Of a stretch of 64,000 nt of DNA, positions 45,736 to 63,779 are shown in pieces. Below the pieces are notes generated by a model. The model saw nothing but the letters and a program-made list of their open reading frames with translations, made no database searches and had not been told where the DNA came from. Location: contig NZ_CP076128.1 of NCBI RefSeq assembly GCF_018736065.1, positions 1,364,001-1,428,000 on the forward strand, read 5' to 3'. The DNA is from Flammeovirga kamogawensis. GTDB lineage: Bacteria; Bacteroidota; Bacteroidia; Cytophagales; Flammeovirgaceae. Both the position numbers and the translations under genes were made by a program. The stretch's first letter is position 1. Every line of letters starts with the position of its first letter.

Positions 45736-46403
45736 GTAGTTGATTTAAATTTCAAATTCCAACCTTTAATACAAAGAAGTAGCATACCTAAAAGGTAGAT
45801 AAAATCTTCTGATGGAATAGTTCCGATTCGAACATTACTAAATTCTCCACTATTGTACCACACTACTGGCTCTTCTGTAATTGCTCCAGTTAAAACTCCA
45901 TTAAATAATAAAAATGGAATTAAAGTGAGTAGATAAGTCCACCAAAATGCATTATTTAGCTGATTAAATGTTACTAGTAAAGCAAGTAATAAAACAGATA
46001 AATTAAAGTAAGAATACATTCCACCATAATAAGCTTGGCTAATTGCTATGCCTATAAAAAAGTAAGCTGGTAAGAACGTTTTTTGTTTTGTGGCAGGAAA
46101 ATAAGCCAATACTACCTCATAAATAAAAAGGAAACAGTATGGAATGATTAAGAAAAACATCCATTCTTCAAGTGGTAAATGGAAGATTTCAATTTTAATA
46201 AGATAATCAGGATTGAACCCCCAATACATCATGATGGTAAAAAACACATCCCATGGAATGTATATTGCCCACAAGAAAAATAAGGCAGGTATAAATTTAG
46301 GCCAATGTTTATAGAAGGCTACTTTCTTATCAAAACTAAGAAAAAAAGGACCTAAAATAGCAAGTATATTTAGGTACAAATATAAATTAAACTGTTCCGG
46401 CAT
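45732..46403 (-). CDS. crtYcd: Fused CrtYc-CrtYd-type lycopene cyclase
   Basis: This 223-residue membrane protein has about seven helices. The two halves correspond to the separate CrtYc and CrtYd subunits of actinobacteria: a conserved LPLEEWMFFLIIPYCFLFIYE block lies near 78-98, and a weaker counterpart in the second half. It should close one end of lycopene to a beta ring. The start overlaps the crtZ end by 17 bases. It is the last gene of the carotenoid operon. This is not the soluble FAD-type CrtY, which is a useful phylogenetic mark. Confidence 0.85.
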   Translation of the reverse strand: MPEQFNLYLYLNILAILGPFFLSFDKKVAFYKHWPKFIPALFFLWAIYIPWDVFFTIMMYWGFNPDYLIKIEIFHLPLEEWMFFLIIPYCFLFIYEVVLAYFPATKQKTFLPAYFFIGIAISQAYYGGMYSYFNLSVLLLALLVTFNQLNNAFWWTYLLTLIPFLLFNGVLTGAITEEPVVWYNSGEFSNVRIGTIPSEDFIYLLGMLLLCIKGWNLKFKSTT

Positions 46404-46881
46404 TTTTGTGTTTTTGAGTTACTTTTTTACCTTTAGCTTCTATCCAATATTTCATTGGTATTATTAGCATGCCAAAACAAGCACCGTCTTCTTTTGTCAT
46501 TTTCTTATGATGAACTTTATGTGCTTTTCTGATAGCCCTAAAATATCGATTATTTGTATTATCAAACCATTTAAACCTTCGATGAATAAGCACATCATGC
46601 GTTAAGAAATAACATAACCCATAAAGTGCAATACCAGCACCTATCCATACAAAAGTATATTGATTATAAATCATTCCTAACATTATCCCTAACCATGATG
46701 GGATGGCAAAAATTAAAAAGAAAAGATCGTTCTTTTCAAAAAAGTTCTCGTGAGGTCCATGATGATCTTCATGTAAATACCATAAAAAACCATGCATCAC
46801 ATATTTATGAGTTGCCCATGCAACAAACTCCATAACTAAGAAGGTTGTAAGAACAATTAGAATATCTATAAACATTGCCAT
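46387..46881 (-). CDS. crtZ: Beta-carotene 3-hydroxylase (CrtZ)
   Basis: The protein has 164 residues from the ATG at 46881. A longer frame starts at 47016, but it would run 130 bases into cruF and carries no family sequence. The enzyme belongs to the fatty acid hydroxylase fold. Histidine boxes HKYVMH, HEDHHGPHE, HDVLIHRRF and HKVHHK supply the diiron ligands. It adds the 3-hydroxyl to the beta ring. It begins six bases after the cruF stop. Confidence 0.92.
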   Translation of the reverse strand: MAMFIDILIVLTTFLVMEFVAWATHKYVMHGFLWYLHEDHHGPHENFFEKNDLFFLIFAIPSWLGIMLGMIYNQYTFVWIGAGIALYGLCYFLTHDVLIHRRFKWFDNTNNRYFRAIRKAHKVHHKKMTKEDGACFGMLIIPMKYWIEAKGKKVTQKHKNAGTV

Positions 46882-46886
46882 ATAAT

Positions 46887-47549
46887 TTAAAAATTTGCGA
46901 TTACTTGTAAAATGAAGTAACCAAAGAATGTTAGATATAAATAAATAGACAGTGGATTCCTTGAAGGAAAAAACTTTATTCGAATATAAATGAAAATACT
47001 CATAAAAACCCACCAACTAATATAATTAATCATTGGCGGCATACCTTCGTCCCATTTCCAAAAGCCCAATGGTTCGCAAACCATCTCTATAAATACATCA
47101 AGAATTACCACTAGTCCTCCGCCTATAACACTTGAGATTATTTTATTCCACTTAGGAATATATTTAAAAATTAATTCACTACCAGCCACTGCCAATACTA
47201 GCCAATTGACTGGAATAACCAATGGTACACCATCTAATTTTAATCCTAAATTATTTAAGTAAACATAATCTCCGAATAAAATACCTGTATGCACGCCATA
47301 CCATTCTATGAAAAAACTTGCAACATACACAAAAATAAACCATCCAATTACACCCTTACTTTTTACTTTTTCAAAATAAAAAAGACATAAAAAGGAGGTA
47401 AATAATAAAAATGGTGAAAAAGGAAGAAGAAGCTGGTTGAAAGGCGTAAAAGCAACTACGCCACCTACTATGTAAAATACTGCTAATAGTATTTTAGTTA
47501 TTTGAAGATTTGTTAGTTCAATTTCTTTTTGAAATGCGCGTACCTGCAT
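46887..47549 (-). CDS. cruF: CruF-like carotenoid 1',2'-hydratase
   Basis: This 220-residue membrane protein of the CruF/DUF422 family has about seven helices. Conserved blocks are ASFFIEWYGVHTGILFGDYVY (about 77-97) and GGLVVILDVFIEMVCEPLGFWKW (about 145-167). The family adds water across the terminal double bond of the acyclic end, giving the 1'-hydroxyl of myxol or saproxanthin. It starts four bases after the crtD stop. Confidence 0.88.
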   Translation of the reverse strand: MQVRAFQKEIELTNLQITKILLAVFYIVGGVVAFTPFNQLLLPFSPFLLFTSFLCLFYFEKVKSKGVIGWFIFVYVASFFIEWYGVHTGILFGDYVYLNNLGLKLDGVPLVIPVNWLVLAVAGSELIFKYIPKWNKIISSVIGGGLVVILDVFIEMVCEPLGFWKWDEGMPPMINYISWWVFMSIFIYIRIKFFPSRNPLSIYLYLTFFGYFILQVIANF

Positions 47550-47553
47550 AAAA

Positions 47554-49008
47554 TTAAGTCTTTGCTACTAATGATGATACAATTTTTGCACTATTTAAAC
47601 ACAAAGGTATTCCTCCTCCTGGGTGAACGCTTCCTCCTACAAAATAAAGATTTTTATATTTTGATGATTTATTCCTCTGCCTGTACAAAGCATGTGTTAA
47701 TTTGTTACTATTTAAACCATATAATGCTCCTTTCCAACTCATTGTATCTTGTTCAATTGTTTTAGGCGTCCAATGAGAAGAATAGGTGATTTTACTTTTT
47801 AAATCAATTGATAATGATTGAGAAAGCTTACTTATTAATTTCTCTTCAATCTTTTTGACGACCTCTTCAGAAAACATTTCAGGAGCAGCCGGAACATTAA
47901 TCATTACAAACCAATTTTCTCCTCCTTTTGGAGCATCAGTATGATTTATTTTACTACTGATATGTACATAAATTGTAGGGTCTTCTGGTATTTTAAACTC
48001 CTCAAACAATTGTCTAAACTCTTCATTATAATCTTCAGAAAAGAAAATATTGTGTAGGTCTAACTGAGAGAAAGAATGGTTAATACCCCAATAAAATACC
48101 AATGCAGATGACGACAGTTCTTTCGTTTTAGGAACATGCACTTTTTCTTCTATCACATTCGGTAAAAAGAAATTAACATCAGCATTAGAAACAAATAAGT
48201 CAGCAGAAAACATTTCATTAATTGTCTCTACACTTACAATTTTATTCTTTAATGTCTTAATACTTTTTACTTTCTGATCGGTCAAAAAATTTATTCCTTC
48301 CTCTTCTGCTAAACGTATTAGAGATGTTGCTATACTTCTCATCCCATTTTTTGGAAAGAATACACCATCAGAATGCTCTAATGCACTAATTACACGCATT
48401 ATGGAAGGTGTTTGATAAGGATTTGAACCGTTATACGTTGCATATCTATTAAACAATTGAACAAGTTGTTCATGTTTAAAATGCTTTTCATTAAATGCAT
48501 TGAGCGATTCAAAAATACCTAACCTTGTGAGTACTGGCAAAGCTTTCATCACATCTTTGTTTAAAAGATCTGATAAATCTGTTAAAGCACTTTCTAAGAA
48601 AATAGGAGCTGTTTTTTTATAATCTCCGATTATCTGCTGCAACACCTTATGTATATCAACTCCCCATTGTTTTTTTACAGCTAAACCAAATTTATCTGGA
48701 TCGCTCCATCCAATAAATTCAGTATTATCCGAAAAAAAGTATTTAGTTGCTATTTCATTTTCAGTATAATCAAAATATTCTTTGGGATCTTTATTATACA
48801 ATTGAAATAATTCCGTAACCAAATGAGGTAATGTAAATAAAGATGGTCCTTGATCAAAAGTAAACCCATTATCCGTTTTGAACTGACGGAGCTTACCTCC
48901 TAATATTGAAGTTCCTTCAAGTACAGTTACTTTATACCCTAATTTATTTACTCTCAATGCTGCGGCAATTCCTCCTATTCCAGCACCTATTACAACTGCT
49001 TTTTTCAT
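47554..49008 (-). CDS. crtD: CrtD-type carotenoid 3,4-desaturase
   Basis: This 484-residue FAD-dependent protein belongs to the CrtI superfamily. It has the dinucleotide loop GAGIGGIAAALRVNKLGYKVTVLE (8-31), then GGKLRQFKTDNGFTFDQGPS, and a GGSVHPGGGIPLCLNSAKI tail. It is clearly the more diverged of the two desaturases here; CrtI is the one at 50403-51896. With CruF in the same operon, 3',4'-desaturation of the hydroxylated acyclic end is the likely job. It begins 11 bases after idi. Confidence 0.85.
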   Translation of the reverse strand: MKKAVVIGAGIGGIAAALRVNKLGYKVTVLEGTSILGGKLRQFKTDNGFTFDQGPSLFTLPHLVTELFQLYNKDPKEYFDYTENEIATKYFFSDNTEFIGWSDPDKFGLAVKKQWGVDIHKVLQQIIGDYKKTAPIFLESALTDLSDLLNKDVMKALPVLTRLGIFESLNAFNEKHFKHEQLVQLFNRYATYNGSNPYQTPSIMRVISALEHSDGVFFPKNGMRSIATSLIRLAEEEGINFLTDQKVKSIKTLKNKIVSVETINEMFSADLFVSNADVNFFLPNVIEEKVHVPKTKELSSSALVFYWGINHSFSQLDLHNIFFSEDYNEEFRQLFEEFKIPEDPTIYVHISSKINHTDAPKGGENWFVMINVPAAPEMFSEEVVKKIEEKLISKLSQSLSIDLKSKITYSSHWTPKTIEQDTMSWKGALYGLNSNKLTHALYRQRNKSSKYKNLYFVGGSVHPGGGIPLCLNSAKIVSSLVAKT

Positions 49009-49019
49009 TCCTTTGCCTT

Positions 49020-49550
49020 TTAAGCTATTGCACGGCTATTTTTGTCTAATTCATTTTTAACTTTTTCCCAACACAAAGGAAACCAAGCTGTAAAATCAGA
49101 TGGTTTATCTATTAACCATTGGTCAAGGTCTTTTCTTGAAATAAATTGTACTTGCTCAACTTCTTCTGGATTAAAATTTATTTGCCCATTGTATTCTCCT
49201 ATAAAAATATAATCAAATTCATGCTCAATTAAACCATTTCCAAAAGCAGCTTTATATAGTATTGAATCGATTTCAATGACTTGAGTTGTAAAACCCAATT
49301 CTTCTTGTAACCGTCTTTCTGTAGCAAAGTTCAATGTTTCATTTACCCTTGGGTGGCTGCAACAAGAGTTAGTCCAAAGACCTCCAGAATGGTATTTAGA
49401 AAGTGCTCTTTGTTGCAATAACAAATCTCCATTCTCATTAAATATAAAAATAGAAAATGCTCTATGGAGAAGACCTTCAACATGTGCCTGAAGTTTCTCC
49501 ATTTTACCTACTGGATTATCCTGCTCATCTACTAATATTACCTCTTCCAT
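49020..49550 (-). CDS. idi: Isopentenyl-diphosphate delta-isomerase (type 1)
   Basis: This 176-residue Nudix-fold enzyme interconverts isopentenyl and dimethylallyl diphosphate, the start units of the pathway. Signature parts are FSIFIFNENGDLLLQQRALSKYH, then GLWTNSCCSHPRV (active-site Cys) and RLQEELGF (metal Glu). It is one base downstream of crtB, so the two are probably translationally coupled. Type 1 isomerase inside a crt operon raises the supply of precursors. Confidence 0.95.
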   Translation of the reverse strand: MEEVILVDEQDNPVGKMEKLQAHVEGLLHRAFSIFIFNENGDLLLQQRALSKYHSGGLWTNSCCSHPRVNETLNFATERRLQEELGFTTQVIEIDSILYKAAFGNGLIEHEFDYIFIGEYNGQINFNPEEVEQVQFISRKDLDQWLIDKPSDFTAWFPLCWEKVKNELDKNSRAIA

Positions 49551-49551
49551 C

Positions 49552-50388
49552 TTATAAAATATTTACTTGATGACGAACGTAAGATTGGAAAAATAAAGCA
49601 TATTTCTTGGGATCAGGAATTCTCAGACGTTCTTTAAGAATTACATTTGCCGGCGTTTTCTTCACTTTATTAAATAAACGAGTATAATAGATATATGCTA
49701 AATAAACCCCAAAACGAGCTTTTTTAGGTAATTGCTTTATACCCTCAAAACCTGCATCAAAGTCTTGTTGAATATCAGCTTCTAATTCTTTCTTAACATC
49801 ATCATTAAAAACTGAAATATCGATATTAGGGAAATAAACTCGTCCTAAATCACGAACGTCTGCTTTTAAATCTCTTAAAAAGTTAATTTTTTGGAATGCT
49901 GAACCTAAAGCCATTGCAGACGGCTTTAATCTTTGGTACTCTTTTTCATTTCCTTCTAAAAATACTCTCAAACACATTAAACCTACAACTTCTGCAGAGC
50001 CTAAAATATAATCTTTGTATTCTTGTTCAGAGTACTCTTTTTTATTTAAATCCATACGCATACTTTTTATAAAAAGAGTAATCAGTTCTCTTTCTATACC
50101 GTATTTATTTACAACTTCTTGATAACATTGTAAAACTGGATTTGTACTAATACCTGTATCAATTGCTTTGTAACAATCATTCTCAAATTCGTCTAGTAAC
50201 TCTTCTTTATTGTACCCATGGAATGAGTCTACAATTTCATCAGCTACTCTAACAAAACCATAAATTGCATAAATAGGGTTTCTTAATTGAGGAGCTAAAA
50301 AACGAATACCAATAGCGAAAGATGTTGTGTATTTTTTAGTTATGATCCGAGACAAATCATATGATAAATCATCATATATTTTTTTCAT
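49552..50388 (-). CDS. crtB: Phytoene synthase
   Basis: This 278-residue squalene/phytoene synthase fuses two geranylgeranyl diphosphate molecules to phytoene. The first aspartate motif is D50-x3-D54 in VADEIVDSFHG, and the second is NFLRDLKADVRDLGR near 168-182. The length fits the bacterial family. It lies 14 bases after crtI and one base before idi. Confidence 0.95.
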   Translation of the reverse strand: MKKIYDDLSYDLSRIITKKYTTSFAIGIRFLAPQLRNPIYAIYGFVRVADEIVDSFHGYNKEELLDEFENDCYKAIDTGISTNPVLQCYQEVVNKYGIERELITLFIKSMRMDLNKKEYSEQEYKDYILGSAEVVGLMCLRVFLEGNEKEYQRLKPSAMALGSAFQKINFLRDLKADVRDLGRVYFPNIDISVFNDDVKKELEADIQQDFDAGFEGIKQLPKKARFGVYLAYIYYTRLFNKVKKTPANVILKERLRIPDPKKYALFFQSYVRHQVNIL

Positions 50389-50402
50389 AGTGTATTTTAA
50401 GA

Positions 50403-51896
50403 TTAAGCGTTAATTTGAGGTGTTAAGGATAATTTCTTTTTTAATATTTCTCTAGCAACTAATTCACCAGAGATAATTGATGGTGGCACTCCTGGGCCGG
50501 GAACAGTTAACTGCCCTGCCATAAGTACATTATCTAATTTTTTAATTTTTATTGAGGGCTTTAAAAAGGCCGTTTGTTTAAGAACATTAGAAAGACCGTA
50601 AGCATTCCCTTTAAAAGCATTATATTCTGATACAAAATCGTTATGAGCAAAAGTTCTCTTTACAATAAGGTGTTTAGAAATATCAACGCCTGTCGATTTT
50701 TTTATCCTATCTACTAATATATTGAAATATTTTTCTCTTACCTCTTCTGTATCTTCCATTCCTGGAGCTACCGGAATTAAAAGCATTAAATTTTCTTTGC
50801 TTTTGGGTGCAATAGTATCATCTGTAACTGATGGAGCACAGATATAAAATAATGGATCTTTTGGCCAAGCTGGGTTGTCGTAAATTTCTTCCGCATGTTC
50901 ATCAAAAGGTGTGTCGAAATATAAATTATGATGATGAATGTTTGGAATTTTTGTATCTAAACCAATGTAATACAATAGGCATGATGGAGCCATTTTACGG
51001 CTACCCCAATATTTCTCATCATAATTACGGTAAGCTTTTGGAAGTAAATTCTGTTCAAAATGATGATAATCACATGAAGCAACCCACTCATCGTGTTGAA
51101 TAGTTTCTCCATTCACTTCAACTGAAACCATTTTCCTACCTTCACAATTTACTTTACTCACTGCTGAGTTAAAGTGAAAAACAACTCCTTTTTCAATAGC
51201 TAATTTTTCAAACCCTCCTACAACTTCTGTCATTCCACCTTTAGGATACCATGTCCCTAATTTTAAATCTGCGTAATTCATCAGACTATAAAGTGCAGGA
51301 GTTCGTTTTGCTACATCTCCTAAAAATAAGACAGGGAATTCTAATATTTTTAAGATTTTTTCGTGTTTAAAATACTTACGTACATAAGTGGCAAAATCAG
51401 AAATCAAATGTAAACGAGGAACATTTTTAATAACTTGCCATTCCGCAAAATCCATAAAAGAATAAGAAGGTCGATGTACAAAATCGTCCATACCTATTCT
51501 ATATTTGATTTCTGCTTCATCAATAAAATCAAAAAGTTTTTTTCTTGCACCAGTTTCCCATGACTCAAATAAATCACCAAGTTTATCTAATTGTGCAGGA
51601 ATATCTGTGTAATCATTTTCTGACCAATAAATTCTATAAGATGGATCTAAACGTGTTAAATCGTAATAATCACTTACTTTTTTACCAAATTTACCAAAGA
51701 AATTCTCAAAAACATCTGGCATCCAATACCATGATGGACCTAAATCAAAAGTAAAGCCTTCTGTTTGCCATATTCTCGCACGGCCTCCTGCCATCTCGTT
51801 TTTTTCATAAACATGAACTTCATGCCCTTTGTCTGCTAAAGTTATTGCCGCACATAATCCAGTGAAACCAGATCCTATTACTCCTATTGAAGCCAT
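50403..51896 (-). CDS. crtI: Phytoene desaturase
   Basis: This 497-residue FAD-dependent enzyme turns phytoene into lycopene. The N-terminal dinucleotide motif is GSGFTGLCAAITLADKGHEVHVYE (8-31), then the MAGGRARIWQTEGFTFDLGPSWYWMP block (about 36-61). The C-terminal GQLTVPGPGVPPSIISGELVARE is the CrtI signature. It is the first gene of the carotenoid operon. The 281-base gap upstream must hold the main promoter. Confidence 0.95.
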   Translation of the reverse strand: MASIGVIGSGFTGLCAAITLADKGHEVHVYEKNEMAGGRARIWQTEGFTFDLGPSWYWMPDVFENFFGKFGKKVSDYYDLTRLDPSYRIYWSENDYTDIPAQLDKLGDLFESWETGARKKLFDFIDEAEIKYRIGMDDFVHRPSYSFMDFAEWQVIKNVPRLHLISDFATYVRKYFKHEKILKILEFPVLFLGDVAKRTPALYSLMNYADLKLGTWYPKGGMTEVVGGFEKLAIEKGVVFHFNSAVSKVNCEGRKMVSVEVNGETIQHDEWVASCDYHHFEQNLLPKAYRNYDEKYWGSRKMAPSCLLYYIGLDTKIPNIHHHNLYFDTPFDEHAEEIYDNPAWPKDPLFYICAPSVTDDTIAPKSKENLMLLIPVAPGMEDTEEVREKYFNILVDRIKKSTGVDISKHLIVKRTFAHNDFVSEYNAFKGNAYGLSNVLKQTAFLKPSIKIKKLDNVLMAGQLTVPGPGVPPSIISGELVAREILKKKLSLTPQINA

Positions 51897-52177: not shown

Positions 52178-54865
52178 TTATTCTGCTTTACCAAAATAAA
52201 CGTTCTCTAAAAGTGCTGTATTTACATCAACATTCATGTTTTCATTATGATCTTCAAACTGAACTGATATTTTATTTTTCCCTTTGTTAAGAGTTACTTT
52301 CATTCTATTCGTTAGTCCAATACTTGACCATTCGTCTGTACCTCTTTGAGACATAACTATTGTAGCTTCTTCTTCACCGTTAATCTGTAAACTTCTTATT
52401 GCACATTTGTTATCAGTGTTCCAAGGTCCACTCCCGTTGGCATACGAGAACCAAATAAAGTAAGTCCCTGCTTCTTTAACAGAAATAGTAAAGTTTATCT
52501 TCTTATTTCTCGATTTAGATAACTCTAAAGTTCCAGAGGGAGCACCTTTAATTGCTATTTTTTTATTAGCTCTAGAAATGCTAGAAACATTTTTAGCAAC
52601 GATTGGTCCTACATTAACCGGTTCAGATATGTAAGATGCATAACCGGTTTTGTCAATTGCTTGAACGGCATATTCTTCTAAATTCAATGCTTTAGGCAGA
52701 GTAAATGTAGTTCCTTTAACCTTTTGAATCACTTTACCATTTTTAACCACTTCATAACTTTCGGCTCCAACAACTTGCTTCCATGTCAAAACATTTCCTT
52801 TTAATTCAGCTTGAGGTGTTTCCAAATGAAAACGATTTGCTACTTTATTAGATGATGTTCCTGTTGTGATATCATTATCTGCTAAAATTATTTCTATAGA
52901 ATGTCTTCCTCCTTTTTCTAAAGAAATTGCATGTGCACCATCTTCAACTCCATCAATTGTAAAACTTTTGATTTTATTACCGAAACCACTCAATTTAATA
53001 GATAGTTCGTTGTTCCAAAGTTTTACGTTTTTCAATTGTTTAGTCCCTTTATATGCTGCAGGAACTGTTGGATGAAAAGATAATACGCCATTTCTGTCTA
53101 TTTCCATTCCATAAAAAACATGATAGATCATTGCCATATTACCAGATAAACTCCATAACATTTCATCAGAGTTTACTTCTGTTCCCATGTAATCACCATC
53201 TTCTGCTACAAAATTCTCTTTATTTGTTAAGAATAGTGCTGCAGGTCTATAAATTGATGCTAAACCTTGCTCTAAAGCTGTTCCATTACCCGTTTTTGCT
53301 GCCGCAATGTTCCAATATGCTTGTACAAATGGCCAAATTCCATTATTATGATAAGGAGGAATACCCGGTATTTGAGGGTAAACACATGCAGCTCCAAAAG
53401 GAACAATAGGAGATTTAGTAACAATCTCTGCACTTCTTTTGCTATCGCTTACTTCAAATAAAACAGCTAGTGCTTCTCCTAAAGCTTCAAATTTTGGTGA
53501 TAACATCATTGTATTACGGCCGTATAAATATTGAGCATAATATCCTTTATCATCCATCCATAAGTGAGTATTTATGGCATTTTTTAAATTTGTTGCCAAC
53601 TCACTGTAATGATTCATCTCTTTAGATTTCCCCAATACATTTGCCATTCTTTCGGCAATTTTCATTGCTTCAAAATGCACCACATTGGTTCCTAAATTCA
53701 TAGAACGATAAATATCACCATTATCCATCCATCTTGGATATGTTTGCTTTCTCCAATCTAAAAATGATGATTCTCCACGCATAAGCCCTGTTTGCTTATC
53801 GTAAACAATATACATATCATCATCAATTGTATTTGTGATTACTTTAAATGCTTCTTTTAACCAATCTTTATCCCCTGTGGTTGTGTATACATTCCAAGCA
53901 GCTAATGCCCATGTCACTCTATCAGAAGAAACAGGCCACGCTCCTCCAGAACCTGTATCTTGAATAATACGATCTCTTTTTACTTTTTTTCTAAGTGATG
54001 TTTTTGCTCTTTCAGGATCTAAAATTGATAAACTTAAAACAATAGAATAACTAATATCTCTTGTCCAAACTCCACCCCATTCTTTCCCTGTTCTAAAAGT
54101 CCCATCTGCTTCAGAATCAGCCACAAGTTCATTTAACGCTAAATTATACAGGGCATCTACTAAAGGAATATCTGATGTAAAAGTTGGATACTTATCTATC
54201 TTTTTAGCAGATTTCCATACAGGCGATGTTTGCTTTTCTGGATCTGGGGCATTCATCATGAAAGTTATTTCATAAATACCGTCCCCATCTTTATCTAATA
54301 ATTGTTCTCTTTCACTTAGGTTTTCAAAGTCCCAACGTAAAGGAGCACTACCTCCGGCAATAAAAACTCCTTTAAAATCTTCTTTTGAAATTTTCTCTCC
54401 GTGAATATCGATATAATACCCTTGCTTTTTAAAAGCGTCTAATACGGGTGACATATCTAATTTGAAAGTCACTTTTGTATTCTTTTCCAACCAGTCCATT
54501 TGATCAACCTTTTCAGTCATTGCCCAAGGTTCACCAAACTTCATAGTTTTAGTAGTAAAACTTCCATTTTTTGGGTGAATCACTATTCTATGGTTAATGC
54601 CATAGGCAAGTTCATCGTCTTTGCCATTAATACTAAATTTAAACTCTACAGCTCTACTGTAGGCATCTTGTAATGGACTTTTATAATTTGATGTCATTTC
54701 CTTAGAAGAAATAACTTTTGCCTCAAAATCACCTTGGGTTACATGATCTCGGTAAACTTTATACGTTGATGACGAATATAAGAGTTCGTCTTTACCTGAA
54801 TCACAGGCTGAAAATAGAATTGCTGATAAACACAGCAAGAAAATAAAGTGTATAGTCTTTTTCAT
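52178..54865 (-). CDS. Six-hairpin glycosidase with C-terminal binding domain, lipoprotein
   Basis: This 895-residue protein has a lipobox ending FSAC (Cys21). Residues 30-215 form a beta-rich N-terminal region. An (alpha/alpha)6 barrel follows (about 225-590), with EWGGVWTRDISYS (262-274) and SGNMAMIYHVFYG marking the active-site face. A beta domain (600-665), a fibronectin III-like segment (about 680-752) and a CBM6/35-like domain (about 765-893) follow. The fold is shared by GH78, GH63, GH37 and related families. I cannot assign it to a numbered family by eye. The TRD motif suggests the acid. It stands alone, between the carotenoid operon and the cellulase, with a LacI-like site upstream. 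Confidence 0.65.
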   Translation of the reverse strand: MKKTIHFIFLLCLSAILFSACDSGKDELLYSSSTYKVYRDHVTQGDFEAKVISSKEMTSNYKSPLQDAYSRAVEFKFSINGKDDELAYGINHRIVIHPKNGSFTTKTMKFGEPWAMTEKVDQMDWLEKNTKVTFKLDMSPVLDAFKKQGYYIDIHGEKISKEDFKGVFIAGGSAPLRWDFENLSEREQLLDKDGDGIYEITFMMNAPDPEKQTSPVWKSAKKIDKYPTFTSDIPLVDALYNLALNELVADSEADGTFRTGKEWGGVWTRDISYSIVLSLSILDPERAKTSLRKKVKRDRIIQDTGSGGAWPVSSDRVTWALAAWNVYTTTGDKDWLKEAFKVITNTIDDDMYIVYDKQTGLMRGESSFLDWRKQTYPRWMDNGDIYRSMNLGTNVVHFEAMKIAERMANVLGKSKEMNHYSELATNLKNAINTHLWMDDKGYYAQYLYGRNTMMLSPKFEALGEALAVLFEVSDSKRSAEIVTKSPIVPFGAACVYPQIPGIPPYHNNGIWPFVQAYWNIAAAKTGNGTALEQGLASIYRPAALFLTNKENFVAEDGDYMGTEVNSDEMLWSLSGNMAMIYHVFYGMEIDRNGVLSFHPTVPAAYKGTKQLKNVKLWNNELSIKLSGFGNKIKSFTIDGVEDGAHAISLEKGGRHSIEIILADNDITTGTSSNKVANRFHLETPQAELKGNVLTWKQVVGAESYEVVKNGKVIQKVKGTTFTLPKALNLEEYAVQAIDKTGYASYISEPVNVGPIVAKNVSSISRANKKIAIKGAPSGTLELSKSRNKKINFTISVKEAGTYFIWFSYANGSGPWNTDNKCAIRSLQINGEEEATIVMSQRGTDEWSSIGLTNRMKVTLNKGKNKISVQFEDHNENMNVDVNTALLENVYFGKAE

Positions 54866-55083: not shown

Positions 55084-58000
55084 TTACTTTTTAATAATTT
55101 TTTTCCTTACAATCTCATTTGTTGATAAATGTGTAAGTTCTAAAATGTAAGGCCCTGATGGTAAATGGCTAAATGATAGCTGCATCATTTGTGAATTTAC
55201 TGCATCAATTTCTTTAGCATATAGCATCTTGCCCATCAAATTGTACACTCTAACTACAGTATTCTCTAATTGTATATTTGATGCAACTTGTAGTGTATGT
55301 TCTGTTGGATTTGGACTTACAACTATCGCTAAAGATGCTGATGAATTATTTAAATCAGTAGCTATCTCTGCTGTAGTTGAAGTTGTTCTCGCTGATGATG
55401 ATACTTCATCATCACCAAAGAAGAAACCATATTCTGCATTAGCCAATGCTACTTCAATCTGTGCCCAACCTCTGTGGTATTTCTGAGTATAAACCTCTCC
55501 TGCATTATAAGCCGCTTCTAAACGGGCAAACTCAGGATCATCTTTATATTGAGGACGAATATCTAAGAATGTCACTCCTGGCTCAATTGTAGCTCCAGTT
55601 GCTGTAGTACCGCTGAAACTTGATGGTATGTAAACTTCTTCTTCAAAGAATCTTGTATAATCTGCTCTTTCTTCTAAAGAAGCTACACCTTTTTCATCAC
55701 GGTAAGTAACCCACATTCTATCTAGAATTTCTCTCGCTAAATCTCTAGCTGCAGTATCTAAAACAGCATGCTTTTCTGTTGCTGCGGCATAATAAATTAA
55801 TGCCTTCGCAGTTGAAGCGGCTATACCTAAATCATGATTGTAACTTACTACCTCTACATGAAGTTCACTATTGTCTCCAGGATTGTTCGCATTCCATGTA
55901 TCAGGTTCGCCTGTCCACTCTAATCCAGCAGGCATATCAAAATCATTTTCACCAACTAAAACAACGACATCAACAACCCATGCGGCCCATTTTTCTATCA
56001 ATGCTTTTGCCATAGGATCATTACTGATATAATAATATTCAGCAACTCTTTCCATTGACCATGCTTGCCAGCCAAACCATCCTCCAGAACCCGGATCATG
56101 GTACACTGGGTGAACATCAAATGCCATATCATAGAATGTTGATTTGCCAGCAGGATAGGTACTATAATCACCATTCCAGCTATTTGTTGCTCCACCTGCG
56201 ATAGCTCCTTCACTTGATTGCAACCAAGTATAGAACTCCATTTGGCGCTGTAAACTTACGTCCCAATCTCTTGCTCCATTTTGAGAAATAGGTTGCATTT
56301 CATCTATTTGAGAAAGAGCATAAGCAGCCATTGGATTTTGGTAACCAAAGTGACAATGTGATGAACCAATTCTAAAGGCCCATGGTGCTGAACTGTCTGC
56401 AGAACCACCCCATGACATATACCATGACATTAAGTAATGTGCATTATCATAACTTGATTGTGATGTAGCAGTAGGTGATTGTGCTCCTAATGGCTTGAAA
56501 TATTTATCAAACATAGCAATACGTAGATAATCACCCATTTTAGTTGCCTTATCTAAATCAAGATCATTTAAATTTGCACCTTGTTCTTTAGCATATTCTA
56601 ATGCCCAATACATTACTTGAACTGCTCTTGCATCAGCATCTGGAGCACTTGTATATCTCCACTGCTCTGTATAACTATTATCTTGCGTAAATAATGGTAA
56701 GAAACCACCTTCTGTACTACCCCAATCAAAACTCTCCCATGATGGGTGTGGTACTGTTTCGTAAACAGATTCTTGTTCACCTCTTTGGAAGGTATTAATG
56801 TAAGAAGGAGTACTTATACCATCTCCTCTATTACCATATCCATAGAAATTATCATTATCCAACAACCAATGCATTTGATAAATATCTGATGTACCATAAG
56901 CTGCTTTTAAATCATCTGATACATAATCTCCATTCACAGAAACTCCAAATTCTAATTTTGAAGGATAACCTGATGGAAGTGGATGTTCAGCTGCATAAGC
57001 TGCAGGGTTTGTAGCACTATAAGCACTATTATTAGGTTGATCTAAAGCTGATGGAATAATAAACTGTTCCGTTTTCCTCCATACTTCTTTTAACGGTTCC
57101 CAATCGCCTGAAATACGACCGTGCATTACCTCTAACCACATCCAATATGAGTATAACTCACTTGTAGACTCATGACCATGATCTGGAGCTTCTACTAATA
57201 ATGTTTCTATAGAATGATGAGGTGATCCATCTGCACTGAAATAACCATTTGCTGGATCGTAGTAAATGTCTCTCATCTCTACAAAACGATCAATGTATTT
57301 ATTGTCACCTGTTGGAGGATCAATAATGATATCACCTTCTGAAACTGTAATAGATACTATCGCCTCATCAGATGCCCCTTCAGTATCTGTTACAATGAGA
57401 GAAACACTATAATCCCCTACTAGTGAAAAAGTATGAGCAACTACTAATCCTGCCTCTGATGTACCATCACCAAAATCCCATGCATACGTTAACGCGTCTT
57501 CGTCAGCATCTGTAGAACCTGAAGCATCAAAAGTTATTGCTAATGGTGCTTTTCCACTTAATTTATCAACATCAATTACTGCTGTTGGTACTTGATTTTC
57601 GTCTGGATCAACTGTACCACATTCTGGTGCTGTTGATGAATTACTGAAATAGATTGTATATCCATCTGTTTTTGATACCAATACAAAATTATCTCCATCT
57701 GCTGTTGCCCAATAAGCACCGTCTAAACCACTAATTCCTGAACTAGTAATCGTTACTGAAGGTTGAGCACTAGAGAATGTATGCGAAACATTCGGTAACA
57801 AATCAATATACCAACTAGGTGATCCATTATTTGTATTGAATGAGAATTGATATAAACCATTATTTGCCGCATCCCAATTCATTGTAAAATCTCTCATATT
57901 TGAAAGATCTGGGCCTCCTGTTCCTATTACATGGATATTCGTAAATGCCTCACTAGATACGCCTGTAAGAGACATACTTTGTGGCGTATCAAATGTGCAA

Positions 58001-61000
58001 TCTCCTTCTACAGGAGGAACATTCTTATCGGTTACAATTATTGTTGTGCTTGTTAAATCAGAAGCTCCTTCTGCATCTGTCACTGTTAAAACAGCATCAT
58101 AATTGCCCACTTCTGAATAAATATGACTTACAGAAACACCTGTATCTGTCATTCCATCACCAAAGTTCCATGCATACGTTAATACATCTCCATCTGCATC
58201 TGTAGAACCTGAACCGTCAAAATTAACAGTAAGTGGTTTATCTCCACTATTCTTATCTGTTGTTATAACAGCTACAGGCGCTGTGTTTTCTTCTGGATCA
58301 ATTACACCTCCACAATCTGGTGCTGTAGCAGAAGTACTGAAATAAATTGTAAATCCTGCTGTTTTTGAAACTAACACAAAATTATCTCCCTCTGTTGCAG
58401 TCCAGTATTCTCCATCAAGTCCTGAAATACCAGAACTAGTAATCGTTACTGAAGGGCTAGCACTATTCAAGGCATGCGTTACACCACTTAATAGATCAAT
58501 ATACCAAGAAGGAGACCCATTGGCAGTATTCATTGAGAATTGGTATAAACCATTGTTTACTGCATCCCAGTTAATAGTGAAATCTCTAATATTTGAAAGA
58601 TCTGGACCTCCATTTCCTAATACATGAATATGCTCATATTTTAAATTGACTAAAGAAGTCATTCCACTACTTAATGGAGTACCAAAAGTACAATCTGATT
58701 CGATTACTTCTGAAACAGTAACAGTAGATGTTATCATGTCAGCTTCACCATCAGTATTTGAAACTGTTAGTGTTACTGTATATTCTCCAATCTCTGTAAA
58801 AATATGATTTGCAGTAATACCATTTCCCACTGTTCCATCACCAAAACTCCATGCATACTCTAAAGCTGTTTCAATACTATTTGTAGAAGAGGAAGCATTA
58901 AAAACTACTGATAAAGGAGCTGTTCCTGAAGTTGGAGTAGCTGTAAAAGAAGCTTTTAATTCTGGAACAACAACTTCATTCACCACAATTGTTTTAGAAA
59001 CTGTAGATGATACATTCTGTCCATCACTTACCGTTAATTCAATAGTGTAAACACCTGGTAAAGTATAAGTTACTGAAGGAGCAACAAGTGTTGACGTTTG
59101 TCCATTTCCTAAATCCCATGCATAAGATAAATTATCTCCATTTGGATCTGAAGAAGCAGAAGCATCTACATTCACTTCCAAAGGAGCGTATCCTTCTGTT
59201 ACATTCGCAGTAAAAGATGCTGATGGTGTGTTTCCTCCGCCAGGCTCTTCTCCAAATACTAATACGCCATTATCATAAACTGGAATTCTTGGTGTTTCAG
59301 CCTCTGAATCTAACCCTAGTGCAGACCAGTCATTTGATGTATCATAAGGAACACCCGATTTTACTTTTACATTGATTTGTGCGTCTCTTCTGAAAGCTGG
59401 ATCACCAATAGGAGCAATTTGTTCTCCTTCTAATGAAATCTCAGCATAATAAATATTTTGAGAAGCATCCCAAGCTTTTACATCCAAAGTAGCATTACCT
59501 TGAGCATAACTTAATTCTACCTCATAATCTGCAATTGAATATCCTTGATCTACTGCTTCCGAGATGTCAAAGAAATAACGGAACTTCAATTTATCAGTAA
59601 CTCTAGCAGGCCATGCTGTTCTGTTTTGAACCAAAACTCTTACAGTACTGCTTGTACTATTATTGCTATTGAATTTAGATACAGACCTGATTTCTGCTCT
59701 ATTAGGAACTTCTGGAACTGGAAAAGTACTTAACGGACTTCCTCCATACTCATCATACATTCTTGCTAATGCCCCTGTAAAACAAGCATTATAATCACAA
59801 GCTACCTCATTAGCAATATAATCACCTCTATCATCTTCAAACTGATCATTTGCAGTACCAGGACCACCTACTAATGCACCATAAAGTATATGGCTTGCAT
59901 CATCAGGCTTATATTGTAAATTATTTGCCCATGCTCCATGTGCCGCTCTATGGTGAGGATTATTTGCAGGATTGTTACCAAAACCGACCATAAAACTACG
60001 GTTAATTGGGTTATCACCTAAAGCATAATTGATTTGTCTTACAGCAAAGTCATGGTATTTTGCTTTCTTAGCAGTAGTAATTTTATCACTATATACAAAG
60101 GCTAAAAATGATGTATTCGAACTATGACGTAAAGATCCCCAAGTCACTAAGTGTGCTTGTCCACCTGGGCTATACGTAATTCTATCTCCATTATAACCAT
60201 CTGTCCAATAGTCTAAATGACGTTCAGCATCCTGCTTATACTCTTCATCACCCGTTAAAACAGACATTAAAATATAAGCACCATACGATTTATCGTCCCA
60301 TGCTAATCCCCATTTATAGGCTTTTTCAGCACTTTGTCCTTCATTTGAAAGTAATTGATATTCTGACTCAGCTTTAGTCAAATAAGAAGCATTACCTGTT
60401 GCTCTATACAGCCAAGCAGCACCCCATACTAACTCATCTTGATATCCACTAAATGATCTATAATACCCTGCCGCATCTGTAATTGCATCAGAATAAGCTC
60501 CTCTATATTGATCTGCAAAACTATATAATTGCTCTGCGTGTTGAAGAAGTAAAGCACTGTATGCAGGATCATCATTTTGATACAGCATACTTACCGCTGC
60601 CATTGCTGCGGCTGTTTCTGCGGCTAAATCTGAACCTGGACTTGAAGCGTCAATCTTAAACGCAGGACGCTCCATTGTCATTACTTCTGATGATCCCCAA
60701 TACGCATGATCGGGTCCTCCACCACCAACTTGTCCATAAAATTCATTTGGAGCTGTATGACATTTGATAAAGTAATCTGTAACGAAGCGAAGGTTACGTT
60801 TTAGTATATCTAACTGACCACTACTTCGGTAAGCATCTTCGTATTCTATTGCACCCCAAGCCAATACGGTGACAGAGTAAGCCATCGGGAAACCAAATTT
60901 AACATGATCTCCAGCGTCATACCACCCACCCGAAAGATCATGACCTACGTCTGATCCATCAGAAAGTGCAGAGTTAGCTCTCCAATTTACCCTATTCCAT

Positions 61001-61143
61001 TCAGGTAATTCTCCTGATTGTTGTGCTTCGTAAAAAAACAGTGACTTCTGTAATGCCTCCCCATAATTAAATTCTTGGGCATACAGATGCAAACAAGATA
61101 AATGTAGTAGAAATACTACACCTAACTTAGAAATAAATTTCAT
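55084..61143 (-). CDS. Multimodular cellulase GH9-CBM3c-PKD2-X-PKD-X-PKD-GH48 with T9SS sorting domain
   Basis: This is a 2019-residue secreted protein. Signal peptide 1-22. GH9 25-470: GGWYDAGD (72-79, Asp76/Asp79), NPHHRAAHG (395-403), and Glu446 in DYIANEVACDYNA as the acid. CBM3c 478-632 (NRTAWPARVTDKLKFRYFFD), the type fused to processive GH9 endoglucanases. PKD domains lie at about 637-723, 729-812, 954-1038 and 1186-1268. Two copies of an unrecognised module, X1 818-945 and X2 1048-1177, sit between them. GH48 1280-1911: VEAPDHGHESTSE (Glu1329 as likely acid), SAPDADAR, SSHCHFGYQNPMAAYALS and RFFEEEVYIPSSF. T9SS sorting domain about 1937-2019 (YILELTHLSTNEIVRKKIIKK). It should attack crystalline cellulose both internally and from chain ends. 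It ends with its own terminator and is divergent from the sulfatase. Confidence 0.92.
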   Translation of the reverse strand: MKFISKLGVVFLLHLSCLHLYAQEFNYGEALQKSLFFYEAQQSGELPEWNRVNWRANSALSDGSDVGHDLSGGWYDAGDHVKFGFPMAYSVTVLAWGAIEYEDAYRSSGQLDILKRNLRFVTDYFIKCHTAPNEFYGQVGGGGPDHAYWGSSEVMTMERPAFKIDASSPGSDLAAETAAAMAAVSMLYQNDDPAYSALLLQHAEQLYSFADQYRGAYSDAITDAAGYYRSFSGYQDELVWGAAWLYRATGNASYLTKAESEYQLLSNEGQSAEKAYKWGLAWDDKSYGAYILMSVLTGDEEYKQDAERHLDYWTDGYNGDRITYSPGGQAHLVTWGSLRHSSNTSFLAFVYSDKITTAKKAKYHDFAVRQINYALGDNPINRSFMVGFGNNPANNPHHRAAHGAWANNLQYKPDDASHILYGALVGGPGTANDQFEDDRGDYIANEVACDYNACFTGALARMYDEYGGSPLSTFPVPEVPNRAEIRSVSKFNSNNSTSSTVRVLVQNRTAWPARVTDKLKFRYFFDISEAVDQGYSIADYEVELSYAQGNATLDVKAWDASQNIYYAEISLEGEQIAPIGDPAFRRDAQINVKVKSGVPYDTSNDWSALGLDSEAETPRIPVYDNGVLVFGEEPGGGNTPSASFTANVTEGYAPLEVNVDASASSDPNGDNLSYAWDLGNGQTSTLVAPSVTYTLPGVYTIELTVSDGQNVSSTVSKTIVVNEVVVPELKASFTATPTSGTAPLSVVFNASSSTNSIETALEYAWSFGDGTVGNGITANHIFTEIGEYTVTLTVSNTDGEADMITSTVTVSEVIESDCTFGTPLSSGMTSLVNLKYEHIHVLGNGGPDLSNIRDFTINWDAVNNGLYQFSMNTANGSPSWYIDLLSGVTHALNSASPSVTITSSGISGLDGEYWTATEGDNFVLVSKTAGFTIYFSTSATAPDCGGVIDPEENTAPVAVITTDKNSGDKPLTVNFDGSGSTDADGDVLTYAWNFGDGMTDTGVSVSHIYSEVGNYDAVLTVTDAEGASDLTSTTIIVTDKNVPPVEGDCTFDTPQSMSLTGVSSEAFTNIHVIGTGGPDLSNMRDFTMNWDAANNGLYQFSFNTNNGSPSWYIDLLPNVSHTFSSAQPSVTITSSGISGLDGAYWATADGDNFVLVSKTDGYTIYFSNSSTAPECGTVDPDENQVPTAVIDVDKLSGKAPLAITFDASGSTDADEDALTYAWDFGDGTSEAGLVVAHTFSLVGDYSVSLIVTDTEGASDEAIVSITVSEGDIIIDPPTGDNKYIDRFVEMRDIYYDPANGYFSADGSPHHSIETLLVEAPDHGHESTSELYSYWMWLEVMHGRISGDWEPLKEVWRKTEQFIIPSALDQPNNSAYSATNPAAYAAEHPLPSGYPSKLEFGVSVNGDYVSDDLKAAYGTSDIYQMHWLLDNDNFYGYGNRGDGISTPSYINTFQRGEQESVYETVPHPSWESFDWGSTEGGFLPLFTQDNSYTEQWRYTSAPDADARAVQVMYWALEYAKEQGANLNDLDLDKATKMGDYLRIAMFDKYFKPLGAQSPTATSQSSYDNAHYLMSWYMSWGGSADSSAPWAFRIGSSHCHFGYQNPMAAYALSQIDEMQPISQNGARDWDVSLQRQMEFYTWLQSSEGAIAGGATNSWNGDYSTYPAGKSTFYDMAFDVHPVYHDPGSGGWFGWQAWSMERVAEYYYISNDPMAKALIEKWAAWVVDVVVLVGENDFDMPAGLEWTGEPDTWNANNPGDNSELHVEVVSYNHDLGIAASTAKALIYYAAATEKHAVLDTAARDLAREILDRMWVTYRDEKGVASLEERADYTRFFEEEVYIPSSFSGTTATGATIEPGVTFLDIRPQYKDDPEFARLEAAYNAGEVYTQKYHRGWAQIEVALANAEYGFFFGDDEVSSSARTTSTTAEIATDLNNSSASLAIVVSPNPTEHTLQVASNIQLENTVVRVYNLMGKMLYAKEIDAVNSQMMQLSFSHLPSGPYILELTHLSTNEIVRKKIIKK
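57613..58002 (-). repeat. Repeat X2 inside the cellulase gene
   Basis: Codes for residues 1048-1177, from DCTFDTPQS to APECG. It is colinear with X1, including nearly identical stretches (GGPDLSN-RDFT-NWDA, SPSWYIDLL, SVTITSSGISGLDG). The DNA itself is similar; both hold CTAGTAATCGTTACTGAAGG on the plus strand. Confidence 0.85.
58309..58692 (-). repeat. Repeat X1 inside the cellulase gene
   Basis: Codes for residues 818-945, from DCTFGTPLS to APDCG. It is the partner of X2. A Cys at each end suggests a disulfide that closes the module. It is flanked by PKD domains. Confidence 0.85.
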
Positions 61144-62210: not shown

Positions 62211-63779
62211 ATGAAAAAGATACTATACTTTAGCATCAGTCTATTCTCCATATTATTTTCAATTACAAACAGTTTTGCAAAAAATAAACAACCAAATATA
62301 TTAGTGGTATGGGGCGATGACATTGGTATTTCAAATGTATCTGCCTATAATCTTGGTATGATGGGATATCAAACGCCAAATATTGATAAAGTTGCCAACG
62401 AAGGTGGTTTATTTACACATTATTATTCTCAGCAAAGTTGTACCGCGGGTAGGGCATCGTTTATTTTAGGTGAAGAACCCTTTAGAACAGGTCTACTTAC
62501 AATTGGTTTACCGGGTTCTCCTCATGGTATTCCTGAATGGGCACCAACAATTGCAGATTTACTTAAAGAAGAAGGGTATACCACAGGTCAATTTGGTAAA
62601 AACCACTTGGGTGATCGTGATGAACATTTACCTACGGAACATGGTTTTGATGAGTTTTTTGGTAACCTCTATCATTTAAATGCAGAAGAAGAGCCTGAGT
62701 CTTATTATTACCCAAAAGATGAAGAATTTAAAAAGAAATATGGTCCAAGAGGTGTTATTCATTCTTATGCAGATGGTAGAGTTTCTGACACAGGGCCTCT
62801 TACTAAAAAACGTATGGAAACAATAGATGATGAGCTTTTAGAAGGCGCTACTTCTTTTATGGAAAAAGCCGCAAAAGCAGACAAACCTTTCTTTTTATGG
62901 TTTAACTCTACAAGAATGCATATCTGGACACACTTAAAAAATGAGTCTGAAGGGGTGACTGGTGTTGGTGAATATGCAGATGGAATGGTAGAACACGATA
63001 GACATCTTGGTGTTTTATTAGATAAATTAGAAGAACTAGGTATTGATGACAACACTATTGTTATCTGGTCTACTGATAATGGCACACAAAAATTCACATG
63101 GCCTGACGGTGGCGTTTCTCCTTTTAAAGGGGATAAAGGAACGACTTGGGAAGGTGGTTTCCGTGCTCCTTGTGTTGTAAAATGGCCAGGTACTATTAAG
63201 CCAGGCACTAAATACGATGGTATGGCTTCTCATATGGATTGGATGCCTACATTATTAGCTGCTGCTGGTAAAGAAAATATTGTTGAGGATGTAAAAAATG
63301 GCTATGAGGCAAATGGAAAAACTTGGAAGGTCCATTTAGATGGGTATGATTTAACAGATTATCTTTCAGGTAAATCTAAAGAATCGCCTAGAGAAACATT
63401 TTATTACTTCTCCTCTACCGGTGACATGAATGCAGTCAGATGGAAAGAATGGAAAGTAAGCTTTGCAATTCAAGAAGGTGATATGTCTGAAGCTTACCGA
63501 ATGGTTCCTGCCTTTCCTAAAGTCGTCAATTTAAAACTTGATCCATTTGAAATGGCACAAGATCAATCCAAAACTGCTTTTAAGTGGTATGTTGAAAATA
63601 TGTGGTTATTTGGCTCTATTGGTGAACAAGTAGAAAAGTTTGTAAAAACTGTCCCCAATTATCCATTCCAACCTGCCGCTGCTAGGGCTGACAAAATTGG
63701 CTACGATATGTTTAAACAAATGAAAGACCTCCAACGTTTGAATAAAGTAGAGGAAGAGGTAAAAAGTTTAAATAAATAA
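62211..63779 (+). CDS. Type I (formylglycine) sulfatase
   Basis: This 522-residue protein has a signal peptide (1-23, NSFAK). The metal-binding pair is GDD (35-37). The sulfatase signature is SCTAGRASFILG, with Cys77 as the residue to be oxidised to formylglycine (C-x-A-x-R form). Later blocks are GKNHLG, the conserved DNGT and FKGDKGTTWEGGFRAPCVVKWPG. It removes sulfate from a sugar or a related ester. Length and order fit family S1. The subfamily and substrate cannot be assigned by eye; a marine sulfated polysaccharide is a fair guess. It diverges from the cellulase gene and has a clear terminator. Confidence 0.9.
   Translation: MKKILYFSISLFSILFSITNSFAKNKQPNILVVWGDDIGISNVSAYNLGMMGYQTPNIDKVANEGGLFTHYYSQQSCTAGRASFILGEEPFRTGLLTIGLPGSPHGIPEWAPTIADLLKEEGYTTGQFGKNHLGDRDEHLPTEHGFDEFFGNLYHLNAEEEPESYYYPKDEEFKKKYGPRGVIHSYADGRVSDTGPLTKKRMETIDDELLEGATSFMEKAAKADKPFFLWFNSTRMHIWTHLKNESEGVTGVGEYADGMVEHDRHLGVLLDKLEELGIDDNTIVIWSTDNGTQKFTWPDGGVSPFKGDKGTTWEGGFRAPCVVKWPGTIKPGTKYDGMASHMDWMPTLLAAAGKENIVEDVKNGYEANGKTWKVHLDGYDLTDYLSGKSKESPRETFYYFSSTGDMNAVRWKEWKVSFAIQEGDMSEAYRMVPAFPKVVNLKLDPFEMAQDQSKTAFKWYVENMWLFGSIGEQVEKFVKTVPNYPFQPAAARADKIGYDMFKQMKDLQRLNKVEEEVKSLNK

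Follow-up and report, generated by a model that had tools for sequence, protein, structure and literature searches.

Here, we describe a single gene of Flammeovirga kamogawensis whose product is predicted to be a secreted, two-headed cellulase, together with its relatives in other Bacteroidota. The gene lies in a stretch of 64,000 nucleotides (contig NZ_CP076128.1, positions 1,364,001 to 1,428,000; hereafter the window), where it occupies 55084-61143 of the reverse strand as one ATG-to-stop frame of 2,019 residues, matching exactly the coordinates of an earlier note made from the letters of this DNA alone. Its product carries, in order, a signal peptide, GH9, CBM3c, two PKD domains, CBM113, PKD, CBM113, PKD, GH48 and a type A sorting domain of the type IX secretion system (T9SS). 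The frame is continuous, as that note claimed, and no frameshift joins its parts, since 7 other Flammeovirga genomes likewise carry the fused frame uninterrupted.

All modules are given by residue and by window position on the reverse strand. The protein opens with a putative signal peptide (residues 1-22, 61078..61143; MKFISKLGVVFLLHLSCLHLYA, then QEFNY), probably of the Sec type as judged by eye. The GH9 catalytic module (residues 24-459, 59767..61074) is matched by Pfam PF00759 over residues 27-459 with 510 bits against a cut-off of 27.7, and CBM3c (residues 484-634, 59242..59694) by PF00942 over residues 492-569 with 45.6 bits against a cut-off of 22.4, the sole CBM_3 stretch of the protein. 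Residues 24-634 align collinearly, in a single block, with T. fusca E4 (PDB 1js4, GH9 and CBM3c; 759-762 bits), and GH9 and the CBM3c directly behind it are read as belonging together in a putative processive-endoglucanase unit. Four stretches are matched by Pfam as PKD domains and were bounded by profile positions: PKD 1 (residues 640-723, 58975..59226; PF18911/PF00801), just ahead of which lies the apparent head-exchange border of relatives, PKD 2 (residues 729-812, 58708..58959), PKD 3 (residues 956-1039, 58027..58278) and PKD 4 (residues 1186-1269, 57337..57588). Between them stand two repeats that the earlier note had listed as unknown; both are present, but they match CBM113 (PDB 9kvn), copy a at residues 818-945 (58309..58692, E 4.8e-43) and copy b at residues 1049-1176 (57616..57999, E 6e-43). 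The GH48 catalytic module (residues 1281-1911, 55411..57303) is matched by PF02011 over residues 1283-1909 with 923 bits against a cut-off of 25, covering model positions 1-619 of 619, and the sorting domain (residues 1942-2019, 55087..55320) by PF18962 (Por_Secre_tail) over residues 1943-2017 with 42 bits against a cut-off of 27, with NCBIfam TIGR04183, also above its cut-off, agreeing on T9SS type A. The remaining modules of the earlier reading (GH9, CBM3c, four PKD, GH48 and sorting domain) are all borne out above their Pfam cut-offs.

The residues which we take to be catalytic are retained in both halves. In GH9 these are presumably Asp76, Asp79 and Glu446, and E4 positions 55, 58 and 424 are D, D and E in 60 of 60 aligned GH9 rows; in GH48 they are presumably Glu1318, Glu1329, Asp1502 and Asp1504, the first three invariant in 67 of 67 rows and the last present in 66 of 67. 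The best-scoring solved GH48 is PDB 4fus, which aligns to residues 1281-1934 with 839-847 bits and which we take to come from Hahella, a marine gammaproteobacterium; the PDB tables name the organism for 1js4 (T. fusca) only, and the organisms of other PDB entries are our own attributions.

The gene is carried by 8 of 9 Flammeovirga genomes and by 0 of 49 other relatives in the same search. GH48 scored above its cut-off in 3 of 395 sampled Bacteroidota genomes, the window's own included, in line with the rarity proposed in the earlier note, and in 5 of 397 genomes of the family to which one of these three belongs. A scan of named genomes with two short peptide patterns, which is not exhaustive, yielded 72 GH48 loci, 53 in Bacteroidota and 19 in Cellulomonas; three Fulvivirga strains tabulated with GH48 (PMC10113389) were missed by it. 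One candidate relative (L021, in genome G288) was rejected at 22 bits, below the cut-off, its protein being made of Ig-like and reelin-like repeats. Since GH9, CBM3c and GH48 share one T9SS-tagged frame at 45 of the 53 Bacteroidota loci (at least 5 genera, which we presume to be mainly marine), a sorting domain ends 53 of 53 and at least one CBM113 is present in 52 of 53, the architecture marks a conserved family of proteins in several Bacteroidota genera and not a singular accident; the earlier note had named many close homologues of this architecture in Bacteroidetes as grounds for refutation, and with these found, uniqueness of the protein is not supported. At six loci that are not fused (L053, L056, L063, L064, L092 and L069), the gene immediately upstream encodes GH9-CBM3c and carries a separate sorting domain; at L039 the contig end falls within the gene, so that its beginning is missing, and at L054 the GH9-CBM3c gene lies elsewhere and is not fused to GH48. 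GH9-CBM3c and GH48 travel together: a GH9-CBM3c match (E 1e-20) was found in 2 of 296 sampled Bacteroidota genomes (the window's own and G142), both of which carry GH48, and in 14 of 14 chosen GH48-bearing genomes or records. The F. kamogawensis genome itself holds one GH48 and one GH9-CBM3c, with a second GH9 matching weakly (E 7.9e-5).

CBM113 was described in 2026 in CelAly, whose UKD domain (PDB 9kvn) was so classed by its authors and binds both cellulose and alginate, with Tyr50, Tyr63 and Tyr64 forming the cellulose plane and Arg36, Lys100 and Lys110 tied to alginate binding (PMC13235733). Positions 50/63/64 are Y/W/Y, all aromatic, in both copies of the window protein, and Arg36 and Lys110 are kept, while Lys100 is replaced by Thr in copy a and Ala in copy b. 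Among 96 CBM113 copies, all drawn from GH48-bearing proteins and with no alginate-lyase set for comparison (L012, L013, L015-L017, L019, L020, L094, L096 and copies of up to 100 residues left aside), the three plane positions are aromatic in 96, and Arg36 is found in 28, Lys100 in 8 and Lys110 in 79. Because the plane is always aromatic but the alginate-linked residues are often lost, the pair is predicted to bind cellulose with weakened alginate binding; the replacement of Lys100 lowers the claim for alginate and leaves the sequence kinship with CBM113 untouched. No CBM113 was found elsewhere in the F. kamogawensis genome. These residues bear on a different view of the natural substrate, namely that it is not cellulose of the plant-like crystalline kind but the brown-algal cell wall, a cellulose-alginate composite in both polymers of which CBM113 would anchor the enzyme. 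The dual binding of the CelAly module and the two retained alginate-linked residues speak for it, as does the growth of F. pacifica, for which alginate was the best of the polymers tried (PMC5385347), but the loss of Lys100 and the unequal conservation of the two residue sets speak against it, and Pfam places no alginate lyase module on the chain. We regard a brown-algal substrate as possible but rather doubtful, and cellulose as the predicted target.

Trees of the two catalytic halves disagree. The GH9 tree has 60 rows with 4 of 5 PDB chains (7unp excluded) and was rooted on 1g87 and 5gxx. The GH48 tree has 67 rows, in which Firmicutes are represented by two PDB chains and one Paenibacillus plasmid gene; it leaves aside the short copies L001-L011 (L011, with L021, being a weak match), L021, the partial L096, seven loci (L012, L013, L015, L016, L017, L019 and L020) whose contigs are shared with L022, L025, L023, L071, L024, L046 and L051, L094 (contig shared with L092), 15 of the 19 Cellulomonas loci, and matches H2, H5 and H6. 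On the GH9-CBM3c tree the heads fall into two deep groups about 50% identical to one another, A (21 rows, support 100) and B (34 rows, support 97, Flammeovirga included). On the GH48 tree the owners of A and B heads are interspersed, requiring at least 8 changes of head type, compared with 1 if the histories agreed and with at least 11 (mean 15.6) in 200 shuffled labellings; lying between 1 and 11, the 8 changes indicate that head type is inherited in part but not throughout. These counts cover 51 rows (19 A, 32 B), without rows lacking GH9 in the locus and without L045 and L047, which have both types; L053, L056, L063, L064 and L092 were typed by the separate GH9 gene that adjoins GH48. Mixed A and B groups are well supported on the GH48 tree in Tenacibaculum (six rows, 100) and in Aquimarina spongiae/acroporae/mytili and kin (five rows, 98). 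In approximately unbiased (AU) tests, a clade of the A owners, as defined on the GH9 tree, is rejected by the GH48 data (log-likelihood 182 lower, p 1.3e-7). With the GH9 data, the log-likelihood falls by 960 for the Tenacibaculum group (p 2.4e-8) and by 719 for the five-row Aquimarina group (p 3e-52), and both groups are rejected.

Pairwise identities place the switch at the border between CBM3c and PKD 1. Loci L038 and L043 are 55% identical in GH9 and 40% in CBM3c, then 82% in the first PKD and 89% in GH48, whereas L038 and L042 are close in the head (91% identical in GH9, 85% in CBM3c), drop to 64-70% over the PKD and CBM113 modules and rise again to 84% in GH48. Within one genus, L042 and L057 show the first of these patterns once more, with 54% in GH9 and 41% in CBM3c, then 80% in the first PKD and 90% in GH48. 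Over the first 60 residues all three pairs are about 70% identical, which is uninformative on the switch. On this conflict of trees and this border, two deeply separate GH9-CBM3c heads are read as having been exchanged under one GH48 tail, presumably by recombination.

Several individual loci hint at how such exchange may proceed. At both of the sister loci L045 and L047, the fused gene is preceded upstream by a stand-alone GH9 gene, and the heads of the two loci correspond crosswise. Identity is 89% between the stand-alone L045 head and the fused L047 head and 93% between the fused L045 head and the stand-alone L047 head, compared with 51% for like-placed pairs. At L045 (2857-12220), the tandem GH9 and GH9-GH48 genes are 99.9% identical over 1,195 bp from the CBM3c/PKD border, a pattern suggestive of recent gene conversion if the assembly is sound here; since the contig is named NODE and is probably a short-read product, both this identity and the crossed heads relative to L047 could be assembly errors. 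The other tree conflicts are independent of L045. In Aquimarina 4-651 (L092, 6968-12169) the order is GH5 (168 bits), CBM113, GH48 and sorting domain, with the GH9-CBM3c gene separate and upstream. In Flavivirga jejuensis (L054, 9191-12187), about 45 N-terminal residues, comprising a signal peptide and about 20 residues of the GH9 head, match the fused protein of a relative (65% over 46 residues) before the chain jumps to CBM113; because it starts like a fused relative, a GH9 head was probably once joined there, and an internal deletion has probably left this start as its scar. The split form, seen in 8 of 56 rows, recurs in separate parts of the GH48 tree (6 changes), so joining or splitting occurred more than once, and since the Pseudarcicella row, outside the main GH48 group, has two adjacent genes, the oldest state may be a gene pair. 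In the fullest form of this reading, which we consider fairly probable, a T9SS-exported GH48 tail with CBM113 and PKD linkers would be a plug-and-play scaffold whose heads (two GH9-CBM3c lineages and once GH5) have repeatedly been swapped by recombination at the CBM3c/PKD 1 border, with neighbouring stand-alone head genes as donors.

The same tree conflict would arise if two ancient fused paralogues, one with an A and one with a B head, had their GH48 tails homogenised by gene conversion before one copy was lost. The near-identity of the L045 tandem genes, if not an assembly error, suggests that tandem genes may convert, and 3 of 13 genomes hold two full-length GH9-CBM3c matches; the other 10 of the 13, though, hold a single one, no second GH48 match occurs in any of the 8 GH48 carriers in Flammeovirga or the 5 at family level, and the switch at CBM3c/PKD 1 is sharp. 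We therefore consider paralogy unlikely and retain head exchange as the preferred reading.

The gene also appears to have moved. In the window it is flanked by an 895-residue glycosidase-like gene (52178-54865, reverse strand) and a sulfatase gene (62211-63779, forward strand), yet across Flammeovirga it occupies three different chromosomal sites. The window's site is without the gene in 7 of 8 other Flammeovirga genomes, and one (G002, locus L018) has it there. In six other genomes the carotenoid cluster, the 895-residue gene and gene L018_505 adjoin with no cellulase between them; in G003, the sole Flammeovirga of 9 in which no GH48 was found anywhere in the genome, the 895-residue gene and the sulfatase adjoin without a cellulase, and the site holds the sulfatase and two further frames. 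In four other Flammeovirga genomes the gene lies next to a cobalamin cluster; in the window's genome that cluster is on the second replicon and the gene is not beside it. Reichenbachiella and one Cyclobacteriaceae row are nested among Flavobacteriaceae on the GH48 tree. The three sites, the site empty elsewhere and the nested rows together support transfer of the gene among Bacteroidota, and with it the horizontal acquisition suggested in the earlier note. Base composition gave no foreign sign in this gene, its G+C content being 37.6% (window, 33.0%) and its third-position G+C (GC3) 0.188, just under the 0.197-0.243 of four neighbours.

Firmicutes, the donor anticipated in that note, receive no such support. 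A recent direct acquisition from Caldicellulosiruptor or Clostridia would account for the layout shared with CelA and for the 826 bits of the GH48 half against PDB 4el8, which we take to be the CelA GH48. However, the Bacteroidota rows form one group on the GH48 tree (n=57; Shimodaira-Hasegawa-like approximate likelihood ratio (SH-aLRT) support 95; with Persicobacter n=58, 84), whose nearest row from outside the phylum is 4fus (support 87), and CelA and CelS lie only beyond; the presumed Hahella chain, Persicobacter and Pseudarcicella stand between CelA and the Bacteroidota family. The GH9-CBM3c half groups with T. fusca E4 (98), apart from three other solved chains including Cel9G, and between the catalytic halves CelA has CBM3b where the window protein has CBM113 and PKD. 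Sampling of outgroups is sparse in both trees, in which 4fus and E4 are nearest, and direct Firmicutes ancestry appears very improbable, transfer among Bacteroidota being the history that we prefer. The deeper Bacteroidota GH48 of Persicobacter sp. JZB09 (L097, plasmid CP012860.1, 859 kb) is 57% identical and is accompanied by PKD and a sorting domain, and the plasmid also bears a separate GH9-CBM3c match (56%). A fusion of two genes by faulty assembly or annotation, to which the two adjacent genes of 6 of 53 Bacteroidota loci might lend colour, is ruled out by the fused frame in 45 of the 53 named loci and 8 of 9 Flammeovirga genomes, and the genome was published as complete (PMC8653839).

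Taken together, we propose, with a probability of roughly 0.85, that the window protein is an exported, two-headed hydrolase of crystalline cellulose that works like CelA, belongs to a family that has moved between marine Bacteroidota lineages, and has a GH9-CBM3c head exchangeable at the CBM3c/PKD 1 border. A Sec signal peptide would direct the chain out of the cytoplasm and T9SS would then carry it over the outer membrane by its C-terminal domain; export by this route, also proposed in the earlier note, is inferred from the tag, from SprA in the same genome (2,356 bits against a cut-off of 200) and from many other T9SS-tagged proteins there (150 matches scored). The two CBM113 would grip cellulose by their flat plane of three aromatics, with the four PKD acting as spacers, as the solved UKD and its mutants suggest (PMC13235733). 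By analogy with E4 and CelA, GH9-CBM3c would cut chains internally and processively, creating ends along which GH48 would move and release cellobiose, the tethering of the two yielding synergy as in CelA. In CelA itself, the wild type released from Avicel 2x the glucose equivalents of the form without GH48, and GH9/CBM3c and GH48 constructs were synergistic (PMC3865294); deletion of CelA reduced growth on Avicel by 77% (PMC4195899). F. pacifica, which carries a relative (L022) with a 79% identical GH48, grew on cellulose supplied as carboxymethylcellulose (CMC), on which its crude extracellular enzyme also showed activity (PMC5385347).

Several points weigh against this proposal. The trees are 'quick' trees with SH-aLRT support only and few outgroups; the GH48 tree is weak at 20 of its 64 inner branches, so the count of 8 head-type changes is not firm, and the groups of both GH9 AU tests were chosen with the two trees already in view. 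CBM3b is absent from the chain, CBM113 standing in its place, and we know of no assay of any protein of the GH9-CBM3c/GH48 T9SS family. The GH48 half of CelA, even with its binding modules, failed to act effectively on either crystalline or amorphous cellulose (PMC3865294), so exo-activity of the window GH48 is an assumption. For F. pacifica, the paper credits two GH9 genes and does not name GH48 in its main text (PMC5385347); as CMC is soluble and two GH9 genes are listed, the growth result need not stem from this gene.

Among known systems, CelA (CbCel9A/Cel48A of Caldicellulosiruptor bescii) is closest, with the same N-terminal GH9-CBM3c and C-terminal GH48, and binding modules between, on one secreted chain (PMC3865294), and the likeness drawn in the earlier note holds. 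The two differ in that CelA, from a thermophilic Firmicute, carries a pair of CBM3b, whereas the window protein has two CBM113, four PKD and a T9SS tag and comes from a marine Bacteroidota; the replacement of CBM3 linkers by PKD and other modules was likewise correctly anticipated. Since CBM3b is not between the halves, the protein is likened to CelA in its working and not filed as a CelA-type member. The endo/exocellulase E4 of T. fusca aligns over the full GH9-CBM3c unit, although its solved unit is without a GH48 half, and the solved chain of 4fus is without a GH9 half. CelAly (Aquimarina sp. 2-A2; GH5, two Big, CBM113, PL31 and sorting domain; PMC13235733) resembles the window protein in having two catalytic modules, CBM113, a sorting domain and a marine Bacteroidota host, but joins a cellulase to an alginate lyase, whereas both catalytic modules here belong to cellulase families. 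Each module and the CelA layout are already known, and GH48 in Bacteroidota is documented (PMC11238990, PMC10113389). CANDy lists Bacteroidota among the GH48 phyla and records 27 GH48 architectures outside the characterised ones, which may include the GH9-GH48-T9SS one (PMC11238990). The accessible parts of PMC7565076 and PMC10535946 hold nothing on a GH9-GH48 T9SS protein, and among the open-access papers that our searches listed we found no account of a GH9-GH48 fusion with a T9SS tag and CBM113, nor of head exchange.

Other features were observed around these genes. In the window, a carotenoid cluster lies beside the cellulase (45732-51896), with a lycopene cyclase and an amine-oxidase/desaturase-like gene matched by Pfam and the rest named by eye. 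In an uncultured Cyclobacteriaceae (L040, 1141-6936), the linker between GH9-CBM3c and GH48 consists, by eye, of five copies of a repeat of about 100 residues, which had no Pfam match and was neither PKD nor CBM113 by our own profiles. In Tenacibaculum and Aquimarina (L042, L053 and L049), more T9SS-tagged genes with CBM3, PKD, CBM113 and, at L053, GH5 lie downstream of GH48, and these neighbourhoods resemble a cellulose-degradation cluster. At L063 (12465-19457), a tagged protein of 2,330 residues with cytochrome c, PKD, CBM3 and CBM113 adjoins the cellulase and might, as a guess, be a redox partner.

The family provides a second line with the GH9-GH48 pairing, this one in Gram-negative marine Bacteroidota, T9SS-tagged, with a different binding module and spread over several genera. 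Its members are candidates for work on crystalline cellulose beyond thermophiles, with a defined exchange border for enzyme engineering. Like GH48 tails joined to two GH9 heads about 50% identical, or to a GH5 head, form a natural experiment on which part sets activity. To our knowledge, Bacteroidota are often said to be without exocellulases; this architecture suggests a route by which they could attack crystalline cellulose at sea.

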